Origin: Bacillota bacterium
Lineage (GTDB): Bacteria; Bacillota; Dethiobacteria; DTU022
DNA: 64,000 nucleotides
NCBI GenBank assembly: GCA_030611385.1
Contig: JAUWPV010000008.1
Coordinates: 1 to 64,000 of the forward strand
Direction of reading: 5' to 3'
The notes beneath the pieces are model-generated. The model did no database searches, was not told the origin of the DNA, and saw only the letters and a list, made by a program, of their open reading frames with translations. Position numbers and translations under genes: made by a program. Positions 7,863 to 35,130 of this stretch are shown here, piece by piece (the stretch's first letter is position 1; every line of letters begins with the position of its first letter).

Positions 7863-8231
7863 GTGCTTAAGGTAAAATCGCGTTTAATCAGCCGGAAGCG
7901 GCGTCACCGCAGAGTTCGGACTAAAATAAGCGGAACACCGCTACGTCCCCGGCTGAATGTATTCCGTAGCAGCAAACATATTTATGCCCAGGTGATCGAT
8001 GATCAATCCGGAAAAACCCTGGCTGCTGCCTCCAGCCTCGATCCAAAGCTGCGTTCGGATCTGCCCAGCGGCAGTAACCGTGAGGGTGCCCGTAAGGTGG
8101 GGGCGTTGTTGGCCCAACGGGCCGTTGATCACGGTATTAAAGATGTAGTATTCGACCGGGGTGGTTACCTCTATCACGGCCGGGTCAAAGAACTGGCTGA
8201 AGGGGCCCGTGAGGCCGGGTTAAACTTCTAG
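7863..8231 (+). CDS. rplR: 50S ribosomal protein L18
   Basis: [55 protein letters not shown]. Confidence 0.98.
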
Positions 8232-9421: not shown

Positions 9422-10678
9422 TTGCTGGAAACAGTTCGTTCAGCGTGGCGGATTAAAGAACTCAGACAGCGTATCCTTTTCACCCTGGCTATGTTTGTGG
9501 TTTTCAGGGTTGGATCGGCGATTCCTGTACCCGGTGTTGATGCATCCAGGTTGGCGGAATTTTTCCAGCAGGATACCATCTTTGGGTTTGTTAATATTAT
9601 CGGTGGCGGAAACCTGAGCAACTTTACGATCTTTGCTCTGGGTATTATGCCTTACATTAACGCTTCCATTATCATGAACCTGTTGACGATAGTTATACCG
9701 AAACTTAAGGAATGGAGCCAGGAAGGTCCCGAGGGCCGCAAAAAAATATCGCAGATTACCCGCTACAGTACTGTTGTGATTGCCGTTATTCAGGCCTTGG
9801 GTCTATCAACAATTATTGCCGGTGAAGCCGTCCTCGATAAAACCCTTCTTTCTTATGCGACGATTATTATTTCGTTGACGGCCGGTACCGCTTTTCTGAT
9901 GTGGATGGGCGAACTGATTACTGAAAAAGGAATCGGTAACGGTATCTCGCTGATCATTTTTGCCGGTATTGTCGCCGGATTCCCCATTGGTGTGGCCCTG
10001 GCAACGGAACAGTACCGCTTCGGCCAGATAAACTTGCTGGTCATCATTGTCGTGCTGATCATGCTGCTTGGTCTGATTATCGGCATTATCGGGCTTGATC
10101 AGGGTCAGCGCAGGGTTAACGTGCAGTACAGCAAGCGCGTAGTTGGTCGGCGTATGTACGGTGGTCAGGCTACGCATATTCCGATGAAAGTAAACCAGGC
10201 AGGGGTTATTCCGGTTATTTTTGCTTCGGTGATTTTAAGTTTTCCGCAAACCCTGGTTAGCTTTATCCAGCATCCGCTAGCACAGAGAATTGCTGCCAGC
10301 CTCAGCTGGGGCACGAACCTGAACCTGGTTTTATATATGACTCTGATCATTCTGTTTGCTTATTTTTACACCGCGGTTCAGTTTGATCCTTTCCAGGTAG
10401 CCGCTAATATCAAGAAGTATGGCGGATTCATCCCTGGCCTACGGCCGGGTCGCCCGACAGCCGAGTACCTGGCCAGGGTAACATCGCGCCTGACTACAGC
10501 AGGGGCATTTTCGCTCGCATTCATAGCTGTCTTCCCGATTCTTTTAGAACGGGTTACGGGGATGAACATTATTTTCAGTGGCACCGGCCTGATTATTGTG
10601 GTCGGCGTGGTCCTGGAAACATTCAAACAAATCGAAAGCCATATGCTGATGCGTAGTTATCGTGGTTTCATGAAATAG
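9422..10678 (+). CDS. secY: Preprotein translocase subunit SecY
   Basis: RILFTLAMFVVFRVGSAIPVPGVD; multispanning; operon position. Confidence 0.98.
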   Translation: MLETVRSAWRIKELRQRILFTLAMFVVFRVGSAIPVPGVDASRLAEFFQQDTIFGFVNIIGGGNLSNFTIFALGIMPYINASIIMNLLTIVIPKLKEWSQEGPEGRKKISQITRYSTVVIAVIQALGLSTIIAGEAVLDKTLLSYATIIISLTAGTAFLMWMGELITEKGIGNGISLIIFAGIVAGFPIGVALATEQYRFGQINLLVIIVVLIMLLGLIIGIIGLDQGQRRVNVQYSKRVVGRRMYGGQATHIPMKVNQAGVIPVIFASVILSFPQTLVSFIQHPLAQRIAASLSWGTNLNLVLYMTLIILFAYFYTAVQFDPFQVAANIKKYGGFIPGLRPGRPTAEYLARVTSRLTTAGAFSLAFIAVFPILLERVTGMNIIFSGTGLIIVVGVVLETFKQIESHMLMRSYRGFMK

Positions 10679-10687
10679 AGAAATGGT

Positions 10688-11443
10688 ATGATCAAACTAA
10701 AATCGACGCGCGAAATAAAATTGATGCGGGAAGCGGGTAAGATCGTAGGCGAAGTGCTGCAGGAGATGGAGAACTCGATCAACATCGGTATAACCACCGC
10801 TATGCTGAACAAGATCGCCGAGAAACTGATCCGCAGGTACGGGGCCGAACCGGCTTTCTTGGGTTATAATAATTATCCGGCATCGATATGCACTTCCGTC
10901 AATAACGAGGTTGTGCATGGCATACCCGGCTTGCGCAAGCTTGAAGAGGGCGATATAATCAGCATTGATGTCGGTGTACGCCTGAAGGGATATTACGGTG
11001 ATGCTGCTGCTACTTTTGCGGTAGGGAAAATATCACCGCAGGCCCGAAAATTGATTAATGTAACGAGGATGTCTCTGCAGAAAACCATTGAGGTAATGCA
11101 GGCGGGTAAGCGGCTTTCAGATCTTTCTCATGCGGTCCAGGCTTATGTTGAGCAGAATTCTTTTTCAATAGTCCGTAATTATGTCGGTCACGGTATCGGT
11201 GAAGAGATGCATGAAGAACCACAGGTGCCAAATTTTGGATTACCGGGCCATGGTCCTCTACTGCAACCGGGAATTGTGTTGGCCATTGAACCGATGGTCA
11301 ATGCCGGCACCTGGGAGGTCAAAGTGCTTGAAGACCAGTGGACTGTGGTGACCTGTGATGGTAGTCTCTCCGCTCACTTTGAGCATACGGTGGCACTAAG
11401 TGAAAACGGGCCTGAGGTGCTTACCTCTTCCAGCCTTTCTTAA
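10688..11443 (+). CDS. map: Type I methionine aminopeptidase
   Basis: IKLKSTREIKLMREAGKIVGEVL; VVHGIPG, YVGHGIGEEMHEEPQVPNF, HFEHTVAL. Confidence 0.97.
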   Translation: MIKLKSTREIKLMREAGKIVGEVLQEMENSINIGITTAMLNKIAEKLIRRYGAEPAFLGYNNYPASICTSVNNEVVHGIPGLRKLEEGDIISIDVGVRLKGYYGDAAATFAVGKISPQARKLINVTRMSLQKTIEVMQAGKRLSDLSHAVQAYVEQNSFSIVRNYVGHGIGEEMHEEPQVPNFGLPGHGPLLQPGIVLAIEPMVNAGTWEVKVLEDQWTVVTCDGSLSAHFEHTVALSENGPEVLTSSSLS

Positions 11444-21174: not shown

Positions 21175-21209
21175 AAACATGGAAAAAAATTGAATGCATA
21201 CCTAATGTC

Positions 21210-21238
21210 AAAAAACACCCGAGACATGGGTGTTTTTT
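21210..21238. terminator. Hairpin downstream of precursor 1
   Basis: Perfect 11-bp stem AAAAAACACCC / GGGTGTTTTTT, 7-nt loop. Confidence 0.75.
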
Positions 21239-21325
21239 ATGATACTAAAACCAGATATGCAAACACGAGCTATCTAATAAATGCTGTTTTCTGCCTGATG
21301 ATGGCAAGTTATGGATTTAATATTA

Positions 21326-21430
21326 TTAGACTGGCTGATCATTTACAACTATTCCCGAGACATTTCCTGCCGTCAAGCTCTTCAAATCCGCGTATTCGAC
21401 CAGTTCAGGTTTTTCATATTCCCGCTTCAA
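21326..21430 (-). CDS. Lasso-type RiPP precursor peptide 1 (absent from the ORF track)
   Basis: TTG start, 34 aa: MKREYEKPELVEYADLKSLTA|GNVSGIVVNDQPV*. YxxP leader motif, Thr at -2 of the predicted cleavage site; AGGAAG Shine-Dalgarno; near-identical leader in precursors 2 and 3. Confidence 0.82.
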   Translation of the reverse strand: MKREYEKPELVEYADLKSLTAGNVSGIVVNDQPV

Positions 21431-21482
21431 AGAATCACTTCCTATTGATAATATTTGCATTGCGCAGACTATTTATGCTTGT

Positions 21483-21511
21483 ATTGTAATCAAGGCATAG
21501 TATTGTGTCAA
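21483..21511 (-). promoter_or_regulatory. Predicted sigma-A promoter for precursor 1
   Basis: On the minus strand: TTGACA, 17-nt spacer, TACAAT. Confidence 0.6.
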
Positions 21512-21552
21512 TGGTTTGGATACAAAAAGTCAAGCAAATTCAATGATTAAGA

Positions 21553-21655
21553 GGAAGGCAATTTGAAAAGCCATGCCTGGCTCGAAGTGGCCGGCCTGAC
21601 TTATAAAGAAAATCTGGAGCATTTAAACACCTACACTCCAATACTGGAAGGATAA
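21553..21655 (+). pseudogene. Relic of lasso biosynthesis B2 protein (3' end only)
   Basis: Encodes LKSHAWLEVAGLTYKENLEHLNTYTPILEG*, nearly identical to the C-terminus of the intact B2 gene at 25630-26064 (LQSHAWFEVAGLPYKESKEHLNTYTPILEG*). Confidence 0.85.
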
Positions 21656-21659
21656 TACG

Positions 21660-22673
21660 ATGTCTCAGAAAAAAACAATTGTTAGAAATTATGCTTTCGA
21701 GGATATCTCAATTAGTGTAACAAGTGACAATTTATCCTGGGCGGACTCATTCGCTTCATATCTTTCCCTTACCCCGGGTGAAAGTTGTAATAATACCAAA
21801 TCAATTGAGCTTACTTTATCGGAAACCGGCCCGGAAGAGCTGGAACAGCTGATACCGCTTCCTGCTGAGCAGTTTTTCAAGCGCGAAAAAACCCTGCTGG
21901 TTGACCGTCCCATACCCTACCGTGTCTACGCCGGAAACGGGCAGCGCTGGGTCGATTTCAGCGGGTTCGGGCGATCCTGGATCGATAGCAATAACAAAAA
22001 GGCTCGGGTTGTGCGCCTAAACAATAATGGTATTTCGCCGGTATATGCAGATGTTATATTTGGTTATAACCCACTGCTAAGTTTATTGGATGAATATGGT
22101 TATTTTACTGTTCATGCATCCTGCGTTCAGGTCGGCGGCAGAGGAGTACTTTTTACCGGAAATAGCGGCAGAGGCAAGTCAACTGCCGCCTATGCAATGC
22201 TGAGAAGAGGACATCCGATTTTAGCCGATGACAGAATTTTGATCAAGAAAGATGCTTCATACAGAGCGTTGGCTATATCTGACGTGATCAAGTTGGAACG
22301 GGCAGCCCAGCAGGCCTTTTTCCCCGAGCTAAGGACAATAAAACCGCTGCATCAGGTAAATGATGAATTGTACTACAAGATTACTTCAGTCGGTAACCTG
22401 CCCTACCTGAACAGCACCCCGGCAAACTATCTCATGATTTTCGAAAGAACCGCTACGGCCGAAAGCAGGTTGGAGCAGGTTAACCCTTCCAGGGTGGTTG
22501 GTGAACTATTTCCTGTAACCATGGGTGATTATAGCCCAGAGGTGATGGAAAAGGATTTCAATTATTTAATGGATCTGCTGGAAAATATCCAGTGCTACCA
22601 GGTCTATTTCGGCACCGACATGAACCATTTTGCCAACTGCATCGAGAATCTTGTAACAGGCGGAGCCTGCTGA
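21660..22673 (+). CDS. HPr kinase-like P-loop kinase of lasso-type clusters (PadeK-like)
   Basis: Walker A FTGNSGRGKSTAAYAML, HPILADDRILI; adjacent to RiPP precursor and B2 relic. Confidence 0.8.
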   Translation: MSQKKTIVRNYAFEDISISVTSDNLSWADSFASYLSLTPGESCNNTKSIELTLSETGPEELEQLIPLPAEQFFKREKTLLVDRPIPYRVYAGNGQRWVDFSGFGRSWIDSNNKKARVVRLNNNGISPVYADVIFGYNPLLSLLDEYGYFTVHASCVQVGGRGVLFTGNSGRGKSTAAYAMLRRGHPILADDRILIKKDASYRALAISDVIKLERAAQQAFFPELRTIKPLHQVNDELYYKITSVGNLPYLNSTPANYLMIFERTATAESRLEQVNPSRVVGELFPVTMGDYSPEVMEKDFNYLMDLLENIQCYQVYFGTDMNHFANCIENLVTGGAC

Positions 22674-23902
22674 TGTTTAAACGAAAGCGCTCGCCTGAAA
22701 ATGAATTTATAGTGGAGTTGATCAAAACTACTCTCGGTAACGGTAATCGGGAACAACTTAGGCTGTACCTGGCCAATAGCAACCCCCAAATATTAAATAA
22801 TCAGATCAGGAGACACGGCCTTGGTGCCTATTTTTACAAAAGTGTTACGGAAAAAGATTTCCCCCTGGAAATGCCGGTTCAACTGTTCGATGCCTGGAAA
22901 CAGTACTCCGCCCAGATTGCCCTGCAGAATACCCTCATCGAACAGGAAGGGGCGGCAATCTTCAAATATCTTAATAAGCAAGACATTGAATATACTCTAC
23001 TGAAGGGGTTTGCCTATGCGGAAGAGCTTTACGGCAGCAAATGGATTCGCCCGGTCGGCGATCTCGATATCCTTATCTCCCGCGAGAATTATCCTCAAAT
23101 AAAAGAGTATCTTTTTCAAAACGGTTATACCTTCACCATCGACAGCGACAACCCGGAACTGCTGGAACAGATGGTCGAACTAAATGAAACCTTCCATAAT
23201 CAAATGCATTTCAGCCGGTCGATCGGTGTATGTGAGGTTCACATCGATGTCCACTGGGATATCGCTGACCTGATTCAGGAAGGTTCTCCTCTACGGCAGA
23301 TCTACCCCTTAAATGATTACAACTGGTTTGACCGTAGCTCAACGATCCGCCTTGGCGGTGTTGACGTTAACTGTCTGAACAGGGAGATGCATTTTATTCA
23401 CATAGTCTACCATTATGCACTCGGCCACCAGTTTGCTGGTATCAAGTGGTTTTTAGATCTCTGCCTGTTTCCAGTCAAACTGGGGCCACAGCTTGACTGG
23501 TCTTTCATCAGTGGTGTGATTTCCTGCCGGGCCTGCAGAAAACTCTTTGCCATTACCGGGCGAATGGTTGCAGATGTTGCTGGAGTACAGCATGATGGCA
23601 TAATGAAGTGGTGTGAGCTATACCCTGGTGCAATAAAAGCCCTTGAATATAGATATTATCATAGCAGGTTCTTCAGGGGTCGTACTCACAGTGGAACGTA
23701 CATCAGCTTCATCCTGCTGTCTCCCAGTATGGCCGACAAATGGCGTATGCTCTACTATATCTTTTTTAATCCGGAAGCCATCCCCGAATGGCGAATGACC
23801 GGCAAGAAAGTATTTCCGCTGCTCCAGCCGCTCTATATTATATATTGGGGTTTGCTAGAGGTAATGACAAAGGGTAAAAAAAGAAGGAAATCCGCGCTTT
23901 AA
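22673..23902 (+). CDS. Nucleotidyltransferase-fold family protein (PF14907-like)
   Basis: YTLLKGFAYAEELYGSKWIRPVGDLDILI (GxxDxDI motif), CEVHIDVHWDI; start overlaps kinase stop (TGATG). Confidence 0.8.
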   Translation: MFKRKRSPENEFIVELIKTTLGNGNREQLRLYLANSNPQILNNQIRRHGLGAYFYKSVTEKDFPLEMPVQLFDAWKQYSAQIALQNTLIEQEGAAIFKYLNKQDIEYTLLKGFAYAEELYGSKWIRPVGDLDILISRENYPQIKEYLFQNGYTFTIDSDNPELLEQMVELNETFHNQMHFSRSIGVCEVHIDVHWDIADLIQEGSPLRQIYPLNDYNWFDRSSTIRLGGVDVNCLNREMHFIHIVYHYALGHQFAGIKWFLDLCLFPVKLGPQLDWSFISGVISCRACRKLFAITGRMVADVAGVQHDGIMKWCELYPGAIKALEYRYYHSRFFRGRTHSGTYISFILLSPSMADKWRMLYYIFFNPEAIPEWRMTGKKVFPLLQPLYIIYWGLLEVMTKGKKRRKSAL

Positions 23903-24738
23903 TTACTTGTATAGTAACGCTTGCGTAAGAGGTTGATGTCCGCTTTGAGGTCATTGCGGTAATCCATGTAATGCGTGTCAAAGGGGGTTTGCACGTGCAG
24001 GCAGCGCAGGTTCCGGTTATGGACTGTAGTCAGTACACCCCGGGCACGGGTAAAGAAATCGGCATGATCGAGACGTTTAATTTTGGGATCCCAATTCACG
24101 AGCAGTAAGCGCTCGGTGCGTGCAATGTAGAAATTAGGGGCCTTATCAAAAACGGGGAAAGGACCGATATAGCTGCCGAGCGGGCGTACAGGTTTTGCGG
24201 TAGTGGGATAAAGCTTAATAGTGCTATAATCGGCTTTGTGGAAGAGCGGTAATTTCAGAACGGTGCCGCCCATGATGTCGATTTCGGGGTACTGAACCAT
24301 GAAAGCAAGGGCCGCTCGCAAGCCTGTTCTAAGATAAAAGACAAAGTCGTCATCGAGCAGTAGGGTGAATGGAGTCCCTACCTGGCGCAGACCCGCGCTT
24401 CGGCCTGCTGAGACACCGGAATCGAAGGGCAGGGTAAGCCATTCAATGCCCGGGATTAGCTTTGGTTGGCGGCTGTCATCAACAACGAGGGTATTCATGC
24501 CCGGGTAGCGCCGTTGAATACTTGCCACGAGTCGGGCTAATGTACGCGGTCGTTCGAAGGTTTTGATCAGGGCGGTTAGCTGCTCTAAACCGCCACCTTC
24601 AGGCAATATTTCAGGGCTGGAAAGGCTGTCCAGCATCTGCAATGTAGCCAGTTCGAGGTTAATAATGGTGCGGTATGCCACCCCGGCAAAGGACCGGAGT
24701 CGTGATGTCAGCAGCAACCGCTTCACGGCAGGATTCAT
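23899..24738 (-). CDS. Family 2 glycosyltransferase
   Basis: LTALIKTFERPRTLARLVASIQRRYP, VVDDS, SAGRSAGLRQVGTPFTLLLDDDFVF; start at MNPAVK with an AAGGAG site. Confidence 0.82.
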   Translation of the reverse strand: MNPAVKRLLLTSRLRSFAGVAYRTIINLELATLQMLDSLSSPEILPEGGGLEQLTALIKTFERPRTLARLVASIQRRYPGMNTLVVDDSRQPKLIPGIEWLTLPFDSGVSAGRSAGLRQVGTPFTLLLDDDFVFYLRTGLRAALAFMVQYPEIDIMGGTVLKLPLFHKADYSTIKLYPTTAKPVRPLGSYIGPFPVFDKAPNFYIARTERLLLVNWDPKIKRLDHADFFTRARGVLTTVHNRNLRCLHVQTPFDTHYMDYRNDLKADINLLRKRYYTSN

Positions 24739-24853
24739 GGAAACTCCTTTCGAAGCATTATTCATCGGGTGAGGCGAAATATATACCAATCTCCGTTGTG
24801 GTGAAGATGATTCTCCGGCAATTTATGATCTTTTGCATTGTAAATGTGCGCCT

Positions 24854-24894
24854 ATTGTTTAAAAACACCCGGATTGCGGGTGTTTTTAAACAAT
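24854..24894. terminator. Hairpin downstream of precursor 2
   Basis: Perfect 18-bp stem ATTGTTTAAAAACACCCG / CGGGTGTTTTTAAACAAT, 5-nt loop. Confidence 0.8.
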
Positions 24895-24976
24895 ACTTAA
24901 ACCAAATATGCAGAGACAAGCTATTTAGTGAATGCTGTTTTCTGCCCTATGCTGGCAAGCTAGGGATCTAATATTA

Positions 24977-25072
24977 TTAGGATCGGCCATTAATTCCAGA
25001 GCCATTTCCTGCTGTCAAGTTCTTCAAATCCGCGTACTCGACTAATTCAGGTTTTTCATATTCCCGCTTCAA
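24977..25072 (-). CDS. Lasso-type RiPP precursor peptide 2 (absent from the ORF track)
   Basis: TTG start after GGAGG; 31 aa: MKREYEKPELVEYADLKNLTA|GNGSGINGRS*. Divergent from pqqD/B2. Confidence 0.85.
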   Translation of the reverse strand: MKREYEKPELVEYADLKNLTAGNGSGINGRS

Positions 25073-25125
25073 TGAGTTGCCTCCTTTGTGATAGTATTCA
25101 TATTGCTTGGACTATTCTTAATCTT

Positions 25126-25153
25126 ATTATAATCGCGGTATCTAAAAAGTCAA
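25126..25153 (-). promoter_or_regulatory. Predicted sigma-A promoter for precursor 2
   Basis: On the minus strand: TTGACT, 16-nt spacer, TATAAT, about 50 nt upstream of the start codon. Confidence 0.65.
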
Positions 25154-25327
25154 GCAGGTTCAAATTAAATATATTTATCAAAAATCAAAGGTGTGGAAGA
25201 TCCGATGCGATGCAATTACTATCGTTAACAGCAGGAATTACTGTTAAGTATCCAGAATAACCAAGTGGAAGCCGGATCTGGAGGAAGACTCCAAAATCAA
25301 TGATTAAGAGGAAAGAGGGTTTGATTA

Positions 25328-25597
25328 ATGAATCGGATTCCTGTCCGTAATGAAGAGATCGTCTGGCGCAATCTTGACGGTGAAGCGGTTCTGCTAAACT
25401 CTCATAACGGGAAGTATTACGGCATGAATGCCGTTGGATGCTCTTTCTGGGAAAAGGTAGATGGGGCCAGGACTCTTGGGCAGATCACCGATCTTCTTTT
25501 CGAGGAATATAATGTTGAGCGCGAAATCCTTGAAAGCGATATCCAGGAGCTGGTGAACTCTCTGGAAAAAAGCGCTATCATCACCCTGAACATTTAA
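25328..25597 (+). CDS. PqqD-family peptide recognition protein (lasso B1 / RRE)
   Basis: 89 aa: EEIVWRNLDGEAVLLNSHNGKYYGMNAVGCSFWEKVDGARTLGQITDLLFEEYNVE..ILESDIQELVNSLEKSAII. Confidence 0.9.
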   Translation: MNRIPVRNEEIVWRNLDGEAVLLNSHNGKYYGMNAVGCSFWEKVDGARTLGQITDLLFEEYNVEREILESDIQELVNSLEKSAIITLNI

Positions 25598-25629
25598 TCC
25601 TGCCGTATTCAAACAGGGAGGAGAATTAC

Positions 25630-26064
25630 TTGTTTTCTCATAAAGGGTTTGTGCTGCCCCGAGATCTATCGCTCCTGATGAGCGTATTTTTTCTTTTAAT
25701 ATACTATTCTATCCTGATCGGGTTATTGCCGATTCGGAAATTACTCGACCTGATCGAACGTAACCGGTTTGGCAGCGATGAAAAGATCGGGCTTGGTCAT
25801 CCTGAAGAGGAAACTCTTGGTAAAATCTACCGAGCTGCCACTTATTTTCTCAGGCGCGTTTGGCACAGTGAGCGCCCCTGCCTGCGGCGCACCCTGATTC
25901 TCTACCGCTGGTGCTGTCGCCAGGGAATACCTTCACGGGTTATGATTGGAGTAAGGAAAGAGAAAGGCAAATTGCAAAGCCATGCCTGGTTCGAGGTGGC
26001 CGGCCTGCCTTATAAAGAAAGCAAGGAGCATTTAAACACTTACACTCCAATATTGGAAGGATAA
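25630..26064 (+). CDS. Lasso peptide biosynthesis B2 protein (transglutaminase-like leader protease)
   Basis: RPCLRRTLILYRWCCRQGIPSRVMIGVRKEKGKLQSHAWFEVAG: Cys and SHAW His motifs of B2 proteins; follows PqqD. Confidence 0.9.
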   Translation: MFSHKGFVLPRDLSLLMSVFFLLIYYSILIGLLPIRKLLDLIERNRFGSDEKIGLGHPEEETLGKIYRAATYFLRRVWHSERPCLRRTLILYRWCCRQGIPSRVMIGVRKEKGKLQSHAWFEVAGLPYKESKEHLNTYTPILEG

Positions 26065-26135
26065 TAATTTCCCGCAGTCAGGCTGTTCAAATCCCCGTAT
26101 TCGATTAGCTGAGGTTTTTCGTAATCCTGCTTCAT
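26040..26135 (-). CDS. Lasso-type RiPP precursor peptide 3 (absent from the ORF track; overlaps the B2 3' end antisense)
   Basis: ATG after GGAGGT; 31 aa: MKQDYEKPQLIEYGDLNSLTA|GNYYPSNIGV*. Leader matches precursors 1 and 2. Confidence 0.75.
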   Translation of the reverse strand: MKQDYEKPQLIEYGDLNSLTAGNYYPSNIGV

Positions 26136-26184: not shown

Positions 26185-26212
26185 ATGATAATAACTACTG
26201 AGAAAAAGTCAC
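26185..26212 (-). promoter_or_regulatory. Predicted (weak) sigma-A promoter for precursor 3
   Basis: On the minus strand: GTGACT, 16-nt spacer, TATCAT; same architecture as the precursor 2 promoter. Confidence 0.4.
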
Positions 26213-27630
26213 TAGAATATTATGGTTATTGGCAAAAGTCTCCAAATTTTACCCAGCAACAGCCGGAGAATTAGTGTTGGCGGGTTGTGCCGCAGGATAG
26301 CCAGGCGGTTTCTGCGCCGCGCTACGGCCTTGAAATATTTTTTGTGCCATTTTGTTCTTTCGGCGGGGGATACAGCAGAAAGATGATCCTGCTGATAGTA
26401 AGCGGTCACTGCTTCTTCAGTCCAGGGATTTTCTTCAAAAAACGAATTACCATATTTCTGGTAGAGCCGTGTGCCGGGATACAGCTGCAGCATGCTCAGG
26501 GCGACGGTAAAGTGGCTACCGGCCTTCTTTAGCCAGTTTAAATGTCTTTCCAGATCAGACATGGTCTCACCCTTGAAACCCTGCATCAGGTAAGCATGAG
26601 CAGCTAGGCCTGCTCTGCGGCACATCTCAAGGGCTTGCCTGTTCATACCTACGGTTGTTCCCTTATGTACGGAATCTAGTTGAGCTTGCGAAGAGGTTTC
26701 AATCCCCATTTCCAGCAGGATACACCCGGCTTTTTTAAGCAGTTTTACGATTTCCGGGTCGATGCAGCTAACTCCGGTCTGGATGGCAAACTTGATTTTG
26801 CGGTGCAGGCCGGTGGTGATTAACTTTTCACAAATGGCGGCGGCCCTTTCACGGTCAACCAAGAAGTTATTATCCAGGAAGTAGAAGCCCTTGATTGGGT
26901 ATTCGGTGATTAGCCTGCTGATCCATTCCAGCACGTATTCAGAGCTGTGCAGGCGTACGCCCTGCCCGTATGTCATTGATTCCGTGCAGAAATCACATTT
27001 TTTTAGGCAGCCTCGTGAGGTTATCAACGACATTGCCGAGAGGTGATGAGCCTTGATCACCGCTCTGCCGGGCCGGGTATAAAAATTCATGTCGAGCAGG
27101 TCAAGAGCGGGGAAAGGTAGGTTGTCAAGGTCGGTAACTTGTTCAGGAGGAGAACCGGCAATGGTATCGCCATCTTTCCACCAAACCCCGGGCAGAGTTA
27201 AAGGATCTGCTCCACCGGCCAGGCGGGTCAACGCCAGTTCGCCTTCTCCTTGGATTACCCCATTGAGTTCCGGTATTCTGCGCAGGGTTAGTTCGGGCAA
27301 TGCAGTGACATGATGTCCCCCGGCTATGATCAGGCCGGAGTGCTCACGGCGCACCAGGGTTGCACATTCGGCAGTATCGTAAATCTGCGGTGTGGTGGTG
27401 TTAAAGCCGACCAGGTCGGGCTTGAATTCCTGAAGTTTTTTCAGCATTAAAGAGTTGATCTTTTCCCTGTCGGGGCCAACGGTAGCCGCGGTAGCGAAAC
27501 GATCGAAAATTGATACTCTGTGGCCCTCTTTTTGCAAGGCGGCAGCGATAAAAGAGAGCCCCAGGGGCAGCCAGTGGGAGCCGGGCTTACGGGTCAGTTG
27601 CGGCAGGGGATAGATCAGCATTATTTTCAC
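26212..27630 (-). CDS. B12-binding domain radical SAM protein
   Basis: N-terminal LPLGLSFIAAALQKEGHRVSIFD, GGHHVTALPE; radical SAM SRGCLKKCDFCTE. Confidence 0.88.
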   Translation of the reverse strand: MKIMLIYPLPQLTRKPGSHWLPLGLSFIAAALQKEGHRVSIFDRFATAATVGPDREKINSLMLKKLQEFKPDLVGFNTTTPQIYDTAECATLVRREHSGLIIAGGHHVTALPELTLRRIPELNGVIQGEGELALTRLAGGADPLTLPGVWWKDGDTIAGSPPEQVTDLDNLPFPALDLLDMNFYTRPGRAVIKAHHLSAMSLITSRGCLKKCDFCTESMTYGQGVRLHSSEYVLEWISRLITEYPIKGFYFLDNNFLVDRERAAAICEKLITTGLHRKIKFAIQTGVSCIDPEIVKLLKKAGCILLEMGIETSSQAQLDSVHKGTTVGMNRQALEMCRRAGLAAHAYLMQGFKGETMSDLERHLNWLKKAGSHFTVALSMLQLYPGTRLYQKYGNSFFEENPWTEEAVTAYYQQDHLSAVSPAERTKWHKKYFKAVARRRNRLAILRHNPPTLILRLLLGKIWRLLPITIIF

Positions 27631-27633
27631 TGG

Positions 27634-28641
27634 TTATACCTCTGCTGTCGGATTGTTATAAGCGCCCGCCCAATCAACTGTTTGGTAACCGTTCCATGGT
27701 TCGCCGCCAACGCCGATATCACGGGCGTGACGCAGTTGGGTCAGTGAAAACGGGTCCTCACTGAAACCTTTGAGGCAGTTGTTTTTTTCTTTTAACCTAT
27801 ACAGCAGACGGTAGGCTTCAAGGTCGATTGCCAGGGGGTTTTCACCCACCAGGATCAGATTACCGGCGGCAGTTCGCCCGTAATCGGGGCCGTCCGTAAT
27901 CATGACGGTACGGGCGTCCATGACACAGAGATCCGGCTGCAGGGCCAGGTTGATCTCGGCGATTTTTTCCTGGAGATGATCCCGATGCAGGGGTATTCGT
28001 TCCAGCGGGTGCATGAAGCCCACGGAGAGCTTCAGGGCACCGGTATATGCGGCATATTGGTGGGTTTTCAGATTGGACAGAGCTACGATGCAATCTGCCT
28101 CGAGGGCAGGGCGGGGAACAGTGATGCTTTCCAGGTAACGGCCGGGTATCGGTACATTAACCCAAGGGGTTTCGTCAAAACAGATCACTTTTGCTCTGTC
28201 TTTAAGGGCACGCGCCAGTCCTGCTTTTTTAACCTGGGACCGGGTGGGTAGTAGACCAATTGTGCAGCAGTCGCCGGCTGTAACTTCTCTGGCGCCGAGG
28301 TTCAATAAAATATCTGCCAGGGTACGGAGCATTCTGGGGCAGACCGATGCGGGGTAGGGGTTGGCCGTATTCAGGTTGAATTTGATAAGCACTTTACGGC
28401 CGGTAATCAGTTCTGCATATTGCTTGCAGAAGAGGTGCTCCAGTTTTTTCGCGGCTTCGTCCGGGTTGCCGGCGGCGCCGAGGCGGTAGACCACCGGTTG
28501 AGCGGTTTTACTTCCAGACAGATGGGCCGGTATTCTTGGAGCGGAGGTCCCTTCGCTGATGATGCTACGCAGGATCCGGGGTTTAAAGAACTTTCGTTTA
28601 ACCCAGATAAGCAGGCTATAAATTTTTCCGGGTATAGTCAA
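27634..28641 (-). CDS. DUF362 domain-containing protein
   Basis: VLIKFNLNTANPYPASVCPRMLRTLADILLNLGAREVTAGD; SNLKTHQYAAYTGALKLSVGF. Confidence 0.75.
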   Translation of the reverse strand: MTIPGKIYSLLIWVKRKFFKPRILRSIISEGTSAPRIPAHLSGSKTAQPVVYRLGAAGNPDEAAKKLEHLFCKQYAELITGRKVLIKFNLNTANPYPASVCPRMLRTLADILLNLGAREVTAGDCCTIGLLPTRSQVKKAGLARALKDRAKVICFDETPWVNVPIPGRYLESITVPRPALEADCIVALSNLKTHQYAAYTGALKLSVGFMHPLERIPLHRDHLQEKIAEINLALQPDLCVMDARTVMITDGPDYGRTAAGNLILVGENPLAIDLEAYRLLYRLKEKNNCLKGFSEDPFSLTQLRHARDIGVGGEPWNGYQTVDWAGAYNNPTAEV

Positions 28642-34865: not shown

Positions 34866-34905
34866 AATAAATAAGCCGCATCCTCCCGAACAGGGAGACG
34901 CGGCC
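34866..34905 (-). terminator. Expression-platform hairpin of Moco riboswitch
   Basis: On the minus strand: GCCGCGTCTCCC-tgtt-CGGGAGGATGCGGC followed by TTATTTATTT, just upstream of moeA. Confidence 0.6.
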
Positions 34906-35014
34906 TGATGGCATAGTCTCCTTTCCAAGCACGGGAGGCGGGGGGATTTCTCCCCCAGCCCAGGCCTTCCACCATAGCTTAACTAAGCATTAGGTGATCA
35001 GGCTCGGAGTCTGC
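34900..35014 (-). promoter_or_regulatory. Moco (molybdenum cofactor) riboswitch aptamer
   Basis: On the minus strand: ACTCCGAGCC...GCCTCCCGTGCTTGGAAAGGAGACTATGCCATC, matching the Moco RNA motif core; precedes a Moco operon. Confidence 0.88.
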
Positions 35015-35130
35015 TATTGCTTTTACAGCAGTATTATATCATATCTTCATTATTGTTGCTGGAAGATAACGAGAAATTTAGATATAAATGATCCCTGCAG
35101 AATAACCGGACGGTCTATATTCGAAGGTCT

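Follow-up and report, generated by a model that had tools for sequence, protein, structure and literature searches.

A probable tandem duplication with complementary gene loss in a cyclase-less, lasso-like peptide locus of a Bacillota bacterium

The 64,000-nt stretch analysed here (‘the window’; contig JAUWPV010000008.1, positions 1–64,000, from a Bacillota bacterium of the lineage Dethiobacteria, DTU022) contains a locus for ribosomally synthesized and post-translationally modified peptides (RiPPs) that is composed of two related segments. Copy A consists of the precursor gene P1 (21326–21430, − strand), a relic of the leader peptidase gene B2 (21549–21657, +), an HprK-related peptide kinase (21660–22673, +) and an NTP_transf_5 nucleotidyltransferase-like protein (NTase; 22673–23902, +). 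Copy B consists of precursor P2 (24977–25072, −), pqqD, which encodes the B1 protein or RiPP recognition element (RRE; 25328–25597, +), and an intact B2 (25630–26064, +). A family 2 glycosyltransferase gene (GT2; 23899–24738, −) lies between the copies, and copy B is followed by a third precursor, P3 (26040–26135, −), a B12-binding radical SAM protein (26212–27630, −) and a DUF362 protein (27634–28641, −). The locus thus reaches right to ~28641, beyond the extent given in a first-pass annotation of the window. That annotation described copies A and B with the same gene contents, and alignment of the two copies confirms them. Each enzyme gene is found once in the genome, with a single PqqD, NTase and kinase and, apart from the relic, a single B2. 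Its view that the copies add up to one gene set with two precursors holds for the complementary set; the precursors number three, and the set is larger, including GT2, the radical SAM protein and DUF362.

Within the window, the terminator, precursor 3′ region, leader and promoter of copy A (21201–21491) align with 24851–25134 of copy B (231/298 columns; blastn E = 4.6e-56), in agreement with the earlier description of similar leaders, 3′ regions and terminators. The relic matches 25958–26066 at 97 of 109 positions (E = 1.6e-36), and the order of terminator, precursor, promoter and B2 3′ end is identical in the two copies. The start of copy A adjoins the 3′ side of PcrB, and that of copy B is positioned just upstream of the GT2 gene. 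A terminator-like hairpin with T-runs after P1 (21203–21237), common with the PcrB 3′ flank, belongs to repeat family D5 and is 76% identical to 24851–24887; the hairpin with T-runs after P2 (24853–24895) contains the 19-nt inverted repeat I3 (100% complementary, loop of 5). Promoter-like sites of P1 (TTGACA-17-TACAAT; 21483–21511, −) and P2 (TTGACT-16-TATAAT; 25126–25153, −) each agree with the consensus at 11 of 12 positions, and the P1 site is among the two best in the region.

The junction in copy A is defined to within a short repeat. Homology on the left runs through TCAATGATTAAGAGGAA, which is exact in both copies (21540–21556 and 25297–25313) and joins the relic directly to sequence that precedes pqqD in copy B, as the first-pass annotation had proposed. 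Homology on the right begins with AAGAGGAAGGCAA at 21549, corresponding to AAGAGAAAGGCAA at 25958. The breakpoint is an 8-nt near-repeat with one mismatch: AAGAGGAA at 25306 in the pqqD 5′ region and AAGAGAAA at 25958 in the B2 codons. In copy A, AAGAGGAA occupies 21549–21556 (+), equal to 25306–25313 on the left and matching 25958–25965 on the right at 7 of 8 positions. Counted in copy-B coordinates, 652 bp are gone from copy A, and the 8-nt overlap indicates that a single deletion of this length accounts for the loss of pqqD and most of B2. The earlier proposal of one deletion at short A/G-rich homology therefore stands for pqqD and B2, but not as the sole change in copy A, where a second difference of ~128 bp lies upstream.

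This second difference is a stretch of the pqqD 5′ region (25164–25291, +) that is present in copy B and not in copy A. It is single copy in the genome (fold z = −1.7), is not a dispersed repeat, and has no match in 59 relatives or in Rfam. The stretch holds nested inverted repeats (AGATCCG...CGGATCT and TTAACAG...CTGTTAA).

The relic comprises the last ~33 codons of B2, close to the ~30 first estimated, and scores as the C-terminus of Pfam Transglut_core3. It contains the ribosome-binding site of the kinase: at all six loci examined, the kinase Shine-Dalgarno sequence (GAAGGR or GGGAGG) lies inside the final B2 codons, the region reading GAAGGATAATACGATG in the window and GGGAGGTTGAAAGATCAGTG, GGAAGGGTAATGCTATG, GAAGGATGATCAAATG, GAAGGATAATCATATG and GAAGGGAGCAATCAATG at the other loci. 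Survival of the relic is readily explained by this overlap. The deletion also placed pqqD's AAGAGGAA just 5′ of an in-frame B2 TTG codon, creating a 30-codon open reading frame (ORF; 21563–21655) with a Shine-Dalgarno sequence just upstream that runs straight into the kinase and may be translated.

At the right end of copy B, homology between B2 and the relic stops at 26066, and homology of P3 to P1 and P2 starts at 26067. The P3 protein (MKQDYEKPQLIEYGDLNSLTAGN followed by YYPSNIGV) is a chimaera: read codon by codon, YYPSNIGV and the stop are encoded wholly by the antisense of the last B2 codons and two bases past the B2 stop. At the same position in G068, a Syntrophomonadaceae bacterium of the same order, a convergent precursor right after B2-kinase has its own tail. 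The chimaeric tail could reflect a single deletion reaching from the B2 stop into P3; it would also suit a partial copy having been inserted at this point.

The enzymes of the locus are assigned by family models. PqqD matches PF05402 (4.4e-17) and, below the cut-off of that model, lasso_PqqD_Bac (2.5e-16); its closest solved structure is TbiB1. B2 scores 62 bits with NF033537 (cut-off 33), and its residues C84, H118 and E130 are invariant in alignments. The kinase (PF07475, 3.7e-12) has the HprK His-Lys-Asp-Asp motif (H152, K173, D190 and D191, aligned to HprK 1jb1), and the NTase matches PF14907 (5.7e-43). GT2 (PF00535, 1.8e-5) is weakly MftF-like (TIGR03965, 2.2e-5) and was not found at the relatives' loci. 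The genes for the B12-radical SAM protein (PF04055, 1e-20; PF02310, 3e-17), which has orthologues at loci L012–L015, and for DUF362 (PF04015, 4.9e-41), both next to P3, are locus members in relatives. For all five genes common with G068, dN is 0.23–0.34 and dS exceeds 1.

Neither B2 nor DUF362 has a solved-structure match by sequence. The AlphaFold model of DUF362 (pLDDT 69) has a predicted LarA-like fold: its top 16 Foldseek matches are all LarA nickel-pincer racemases (TM 0.28–0.43), and its invariant H194 and K204 are spaced by 10 residues, as are the catalytic His174 and tethering Lys184 of LarA. Pfam places DUF362 and the LarA N-domain in one clan (PMC11770544). Kinship with LarA is a lead suggested by this model, and our literature search found no paper naming DUF362 together with RiPPs. 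A LarE-like gene is present in the genome (L002).

Relatives were compared, as the first-pass annotation had proposed; an alignment-based contig scan with the kinase found five loci, and a single-sequence scan found none. G068, whose kinase is 58% identical to that of the window, has pqqD (cut by the contig end)-B2-kinase, followed by the convergent precursor, radical SAM, DUF362 and another precursor. The four Syntrophomonas loci (L013–L016) combine divergent precursors with contiguous pqqD-B2-kinase. In L013, L014 and L015 these genes form one operon, pqqD-B2-kinase-DUF362-radical SAM-NTase, to which L013 and L014 add a galE-like gene amid glycosyltransferase genes; L016 shows pqqD-B2-kinase only. 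The split arrangement is seen in none of the five relatives' loci, and since pqqD-B2-kinase is uninterrupted in all of them, the split in the window appears derived. In each pair, P1 and P2 (90% nucleotide identity over the leader) and the relic and B2 (89%), the members resemble one another more than they do G068 (leaders 60–69%), which argues for a lineage-specific duplication that is recent relative to the split from G068. The locus is patchy in distribution: 59 further genomes from the family and order lack B2, all but one of 97 other genomes in the class lack the kinase, and a search of 399 genomes of the phylum gave only one further kinase relative.

P1 (MKREYEKPELVEYADLKSLTAGNVSGIVVNDQPV) and P2 (MKREYEKPELVEYADLKNLTAGNGSGINGRS) both have TTG starts, and all three precursors, with leaders of the lasso type (YxxPxL...Thr), score above the cut-off of the lasso leader L3 model NF033521 (24.5 bits for P1, 27 for P2 and 28 for P3, the best of the three). 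The precursor tails are otherwise little alike, but 14 of 14 locus tails hold a Ser, the first at 4–7 residues after the leader Thr. Four unlinked precursors found later in two Syntrophomonas genomes also have Ser at 3–7 after Thr, bringing the total to 18 of 18. These stand-alone genes carry the same leader and lie off-locus at L041 1–3069 (three in tandem) and L045 around 1500; both groups adjoin the same conserved 311-aa ORF of unknown function. At L015 ~7900–8000 a third, apparently decayed precursor (MYKLSYEKPQLITFEACVK, ending at a stop codon) stands beside two intact ones.

No lasso cyclase, an Asn-synthetase-like enzyme, was found in the 99.4%-complete genome, where the Asn_synthase model matches only GuaA-like (GMP synthase) and LarE-like proteins. 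In G457 its matches are only LarE- and MnmA-like proteins, and in G531 and G532 there are only weak matches, to ORFs of 276–397 aa. The Asp or Glu that would form a lasso ring at core position 7–9 is missing as well: P1 has none there, and the P2 and P3 tails lack acidic residues altogether. Membership among lasso peptide clusters was considered and rejected for want of a cyclase and a ring residue; the leader, B1 and B2 are those of such clusters.

The probable and best reading of these homologies, junctions and gene contents, in our view, is that a lasso-like RiPP locus without a cyclase, which would make a linear Ser-phosphopeptide, was duplicated in tandem within this lineage and that its copies then underwent complementary loss. 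The order of events, the chemistry and the role that follow are those we infer. The ancestor would have had one or more precursors pointing away from pqqD-B2-kinase-NTase, with P3-radical SAM-DUF362 next in convergent orientation. A segment containing terminator, precursor, promoter, pqqD and B2 would have been duplicated in tandem, probably together with kinase, NTase and GT2. Copy A would then have lost the 652 bp between the short A/G-rich repeats, keeping promoter and ribosome-binding region upstream, while copy B came to be without kinase and NTase as the B2 stop was fused to P3 and the old P3 tail was replaced by antisense B2. The presumed outcome is that two halves, each transcribed separately, complement each other to give a single gene set, with three precursors.

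In the proposed pathway, PqqD would bind the YxxP leader, the HprK-like kinase would phosphorylate the Ser 3–7 residues after the conserved Thr, and the NTase, perhaps with GT2, might decorate the phosphate. B2 would cut off the leader near T-[A/G]-G, and the radical SAM protein and DUF362 may contribute a modification of unspecified kind. With no cyclase, the product would stay linear, and the conserved tail Ser together with an HprK-type kinase points to Ser phosphorylation. There are precedents for this chemistry: LppK polyphosphorylates core Ser3 in linear polyphosphorylated peptides (LPPs; Popov et al. 2026, PMC13381572), and PsmK phosphorylates a Ser to which PsmN adds a hexose, onto phospho-Ser (PMC9266682). 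By analogy, the product may be a short linear Ser-phosphorylated peptide, possibly glycosylated, released by B2.

Several observations weigh against this reading. The right end of the duplicated unit cannot be fixed, which leaves deletion as an unproved route for the loss from copy B, and the 30-aa peptide encoded in the relic may have arisen by chance. Residue shuffles give p = 8e-4 for Ser in every tail and matched the observed placement in none of 200,000 trials, but the window of positions 4–7 was picked after viewing the tails, and across all tails the Ser position varies (3–7) rather than being fixed. Full-length Asn_synthase proteins occur in G068 and in the genome of L016, leaving only four genomes of the six in which the cyclase is cleanly absent. 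The several such proteins in G068, and the match of leaders, PqqD and B2 to lasso models, would also suit an ordinary lasso locus with its cyclase encoded elsewhere. We consider that very improbable, because neither this genome nor three relatives' genomes has an AsnB-type protein and the tails have no Asp or Glu at positions 7–9 of a G-initial core.

A less likely but credible history is that copy B was partial from the start: terminator-precursor-pqqD-B2 alone was duplicated and inserted into the P3 tail, and copy A later lost pqqD-B2 by one deletion. This requires one event fewer and suits the clean joint at 26066/26067. It predicts a displaced P3 tail left of ~24837–24851, where the four reading positions tried were open for ~20 codons without yielding a short tail and where nothing homologous to the 3′ flanks of the relatives' precursors was found, both tests being weak. 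That the locus is instead a decaying remnant, in which complementarity reflects chance erosion and nothing is made, seems unlikely. The relic, the shortened 5′ region, the chimaeric tail and the decayed third precursor in L015 would agree with erosion, but every enzyme of the ancestral set is kept exactly once with catalytic residues intact, leader differences between P1 and P2 are mostly synonymous (4 against 2), the promoters are strong, and the relic retains the kinase ribosome-binding site. An assembly chimaera is barely plausible, although the genome is in 54 contigs and an exact repeat of 17 nt lies at the junction: the copies are only 77–89% identical, their longest common word is 27 nt, and the relic and B2 differ at 12 of 109 positions and so do not derive from the same template.

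Among known systems, the duplication with complementary loss that we favour resembles duplication-degeneration-complementation, where each copy loses different parts and the two jointly cover the ancestral set; here, whole operon genes rather than sub-functions of one gene are split between tandem copies. As judged from its genes, the locus would work most like the LPPs, yet it is not an LPP member by peptidase and exporter. As in LPPs, a discrete PqqD-type RRE, an HprK-like kinase and an NTP transferase are combined with YxxP leaders and no cyclase, there are one to three precursors with variable tails and a Ser near the core start, and the loci lie amid polysaccharide genes, which here is true of the Syntrophomonas loci. 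In place of the LPP SipW-like signal peptidase the window has a B2 cysteine-protease homologue; no SipW-like or S26 peptidase is among the enzyme genes of 21.6–28.6 kb, all of which are assigned, and there is no MsbA-like or other ABC exporter between 21.2 and 28.7 kb. The precursors are also shorter (26–34 aa versus 35–200 in LPPs), and the B12-radical SAM protein and DUF362 are additional. Paeninodin-like and pseudomycoidin lasso systems (PadeK, PsmK, PsmN; reviewed in PMC9266682) share B1, B2, an HprK-like kinase, a nucleotidyltransferase, the lasso leader L3 and, immediately ahead of the presumed cleavage site, the conserved Thr, but differ in having a macrolactam cyclase and a ring Asp/Glu; the Ser here is internal instead of always C-terminal.

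The locus documents duplication and complementary loss of an operon down to single bases. Why the relic survived can be seen, as it carries the ribosome-binding site of the next gene, and antisense DNA has given rise to a precursor tail. Lasso-type B1/B2 machinery exists without a cyclase in anaerobic syntrophs, together with a kinase and a conserved tail Ser, and the primary modification in such loci may be phosphorylation rather than lasso closure. The recently described LPPs would thereby be linked to lasso peptides through an intermediate form processed by B2. A bolder proposal, which we think rather a long shot, sees here a RiPP class of its own: very short peptides with lasso leaders and no cyclase, phosphorylated at Ser, perhaps also glycosylated, and then further altered by a B12-radical SAM protein and by a DUF362 enzyme that uses a nickel-pincer-type cofactor. 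In this view, deletion between duplicated operons would also have given P3 a new tail from antisense peptidase sequence.

Elsewhere in the window, the ribosomal-protein cluster at 9422–11443 has map directly after secY, with no adk between them; adk in that position is common in Bacillota. A Moco (molybdenum/tungsten) riboswitch (34902–35021, −; Rfam RF01055, 66 bits) lies upstream of molybdopterin genes.

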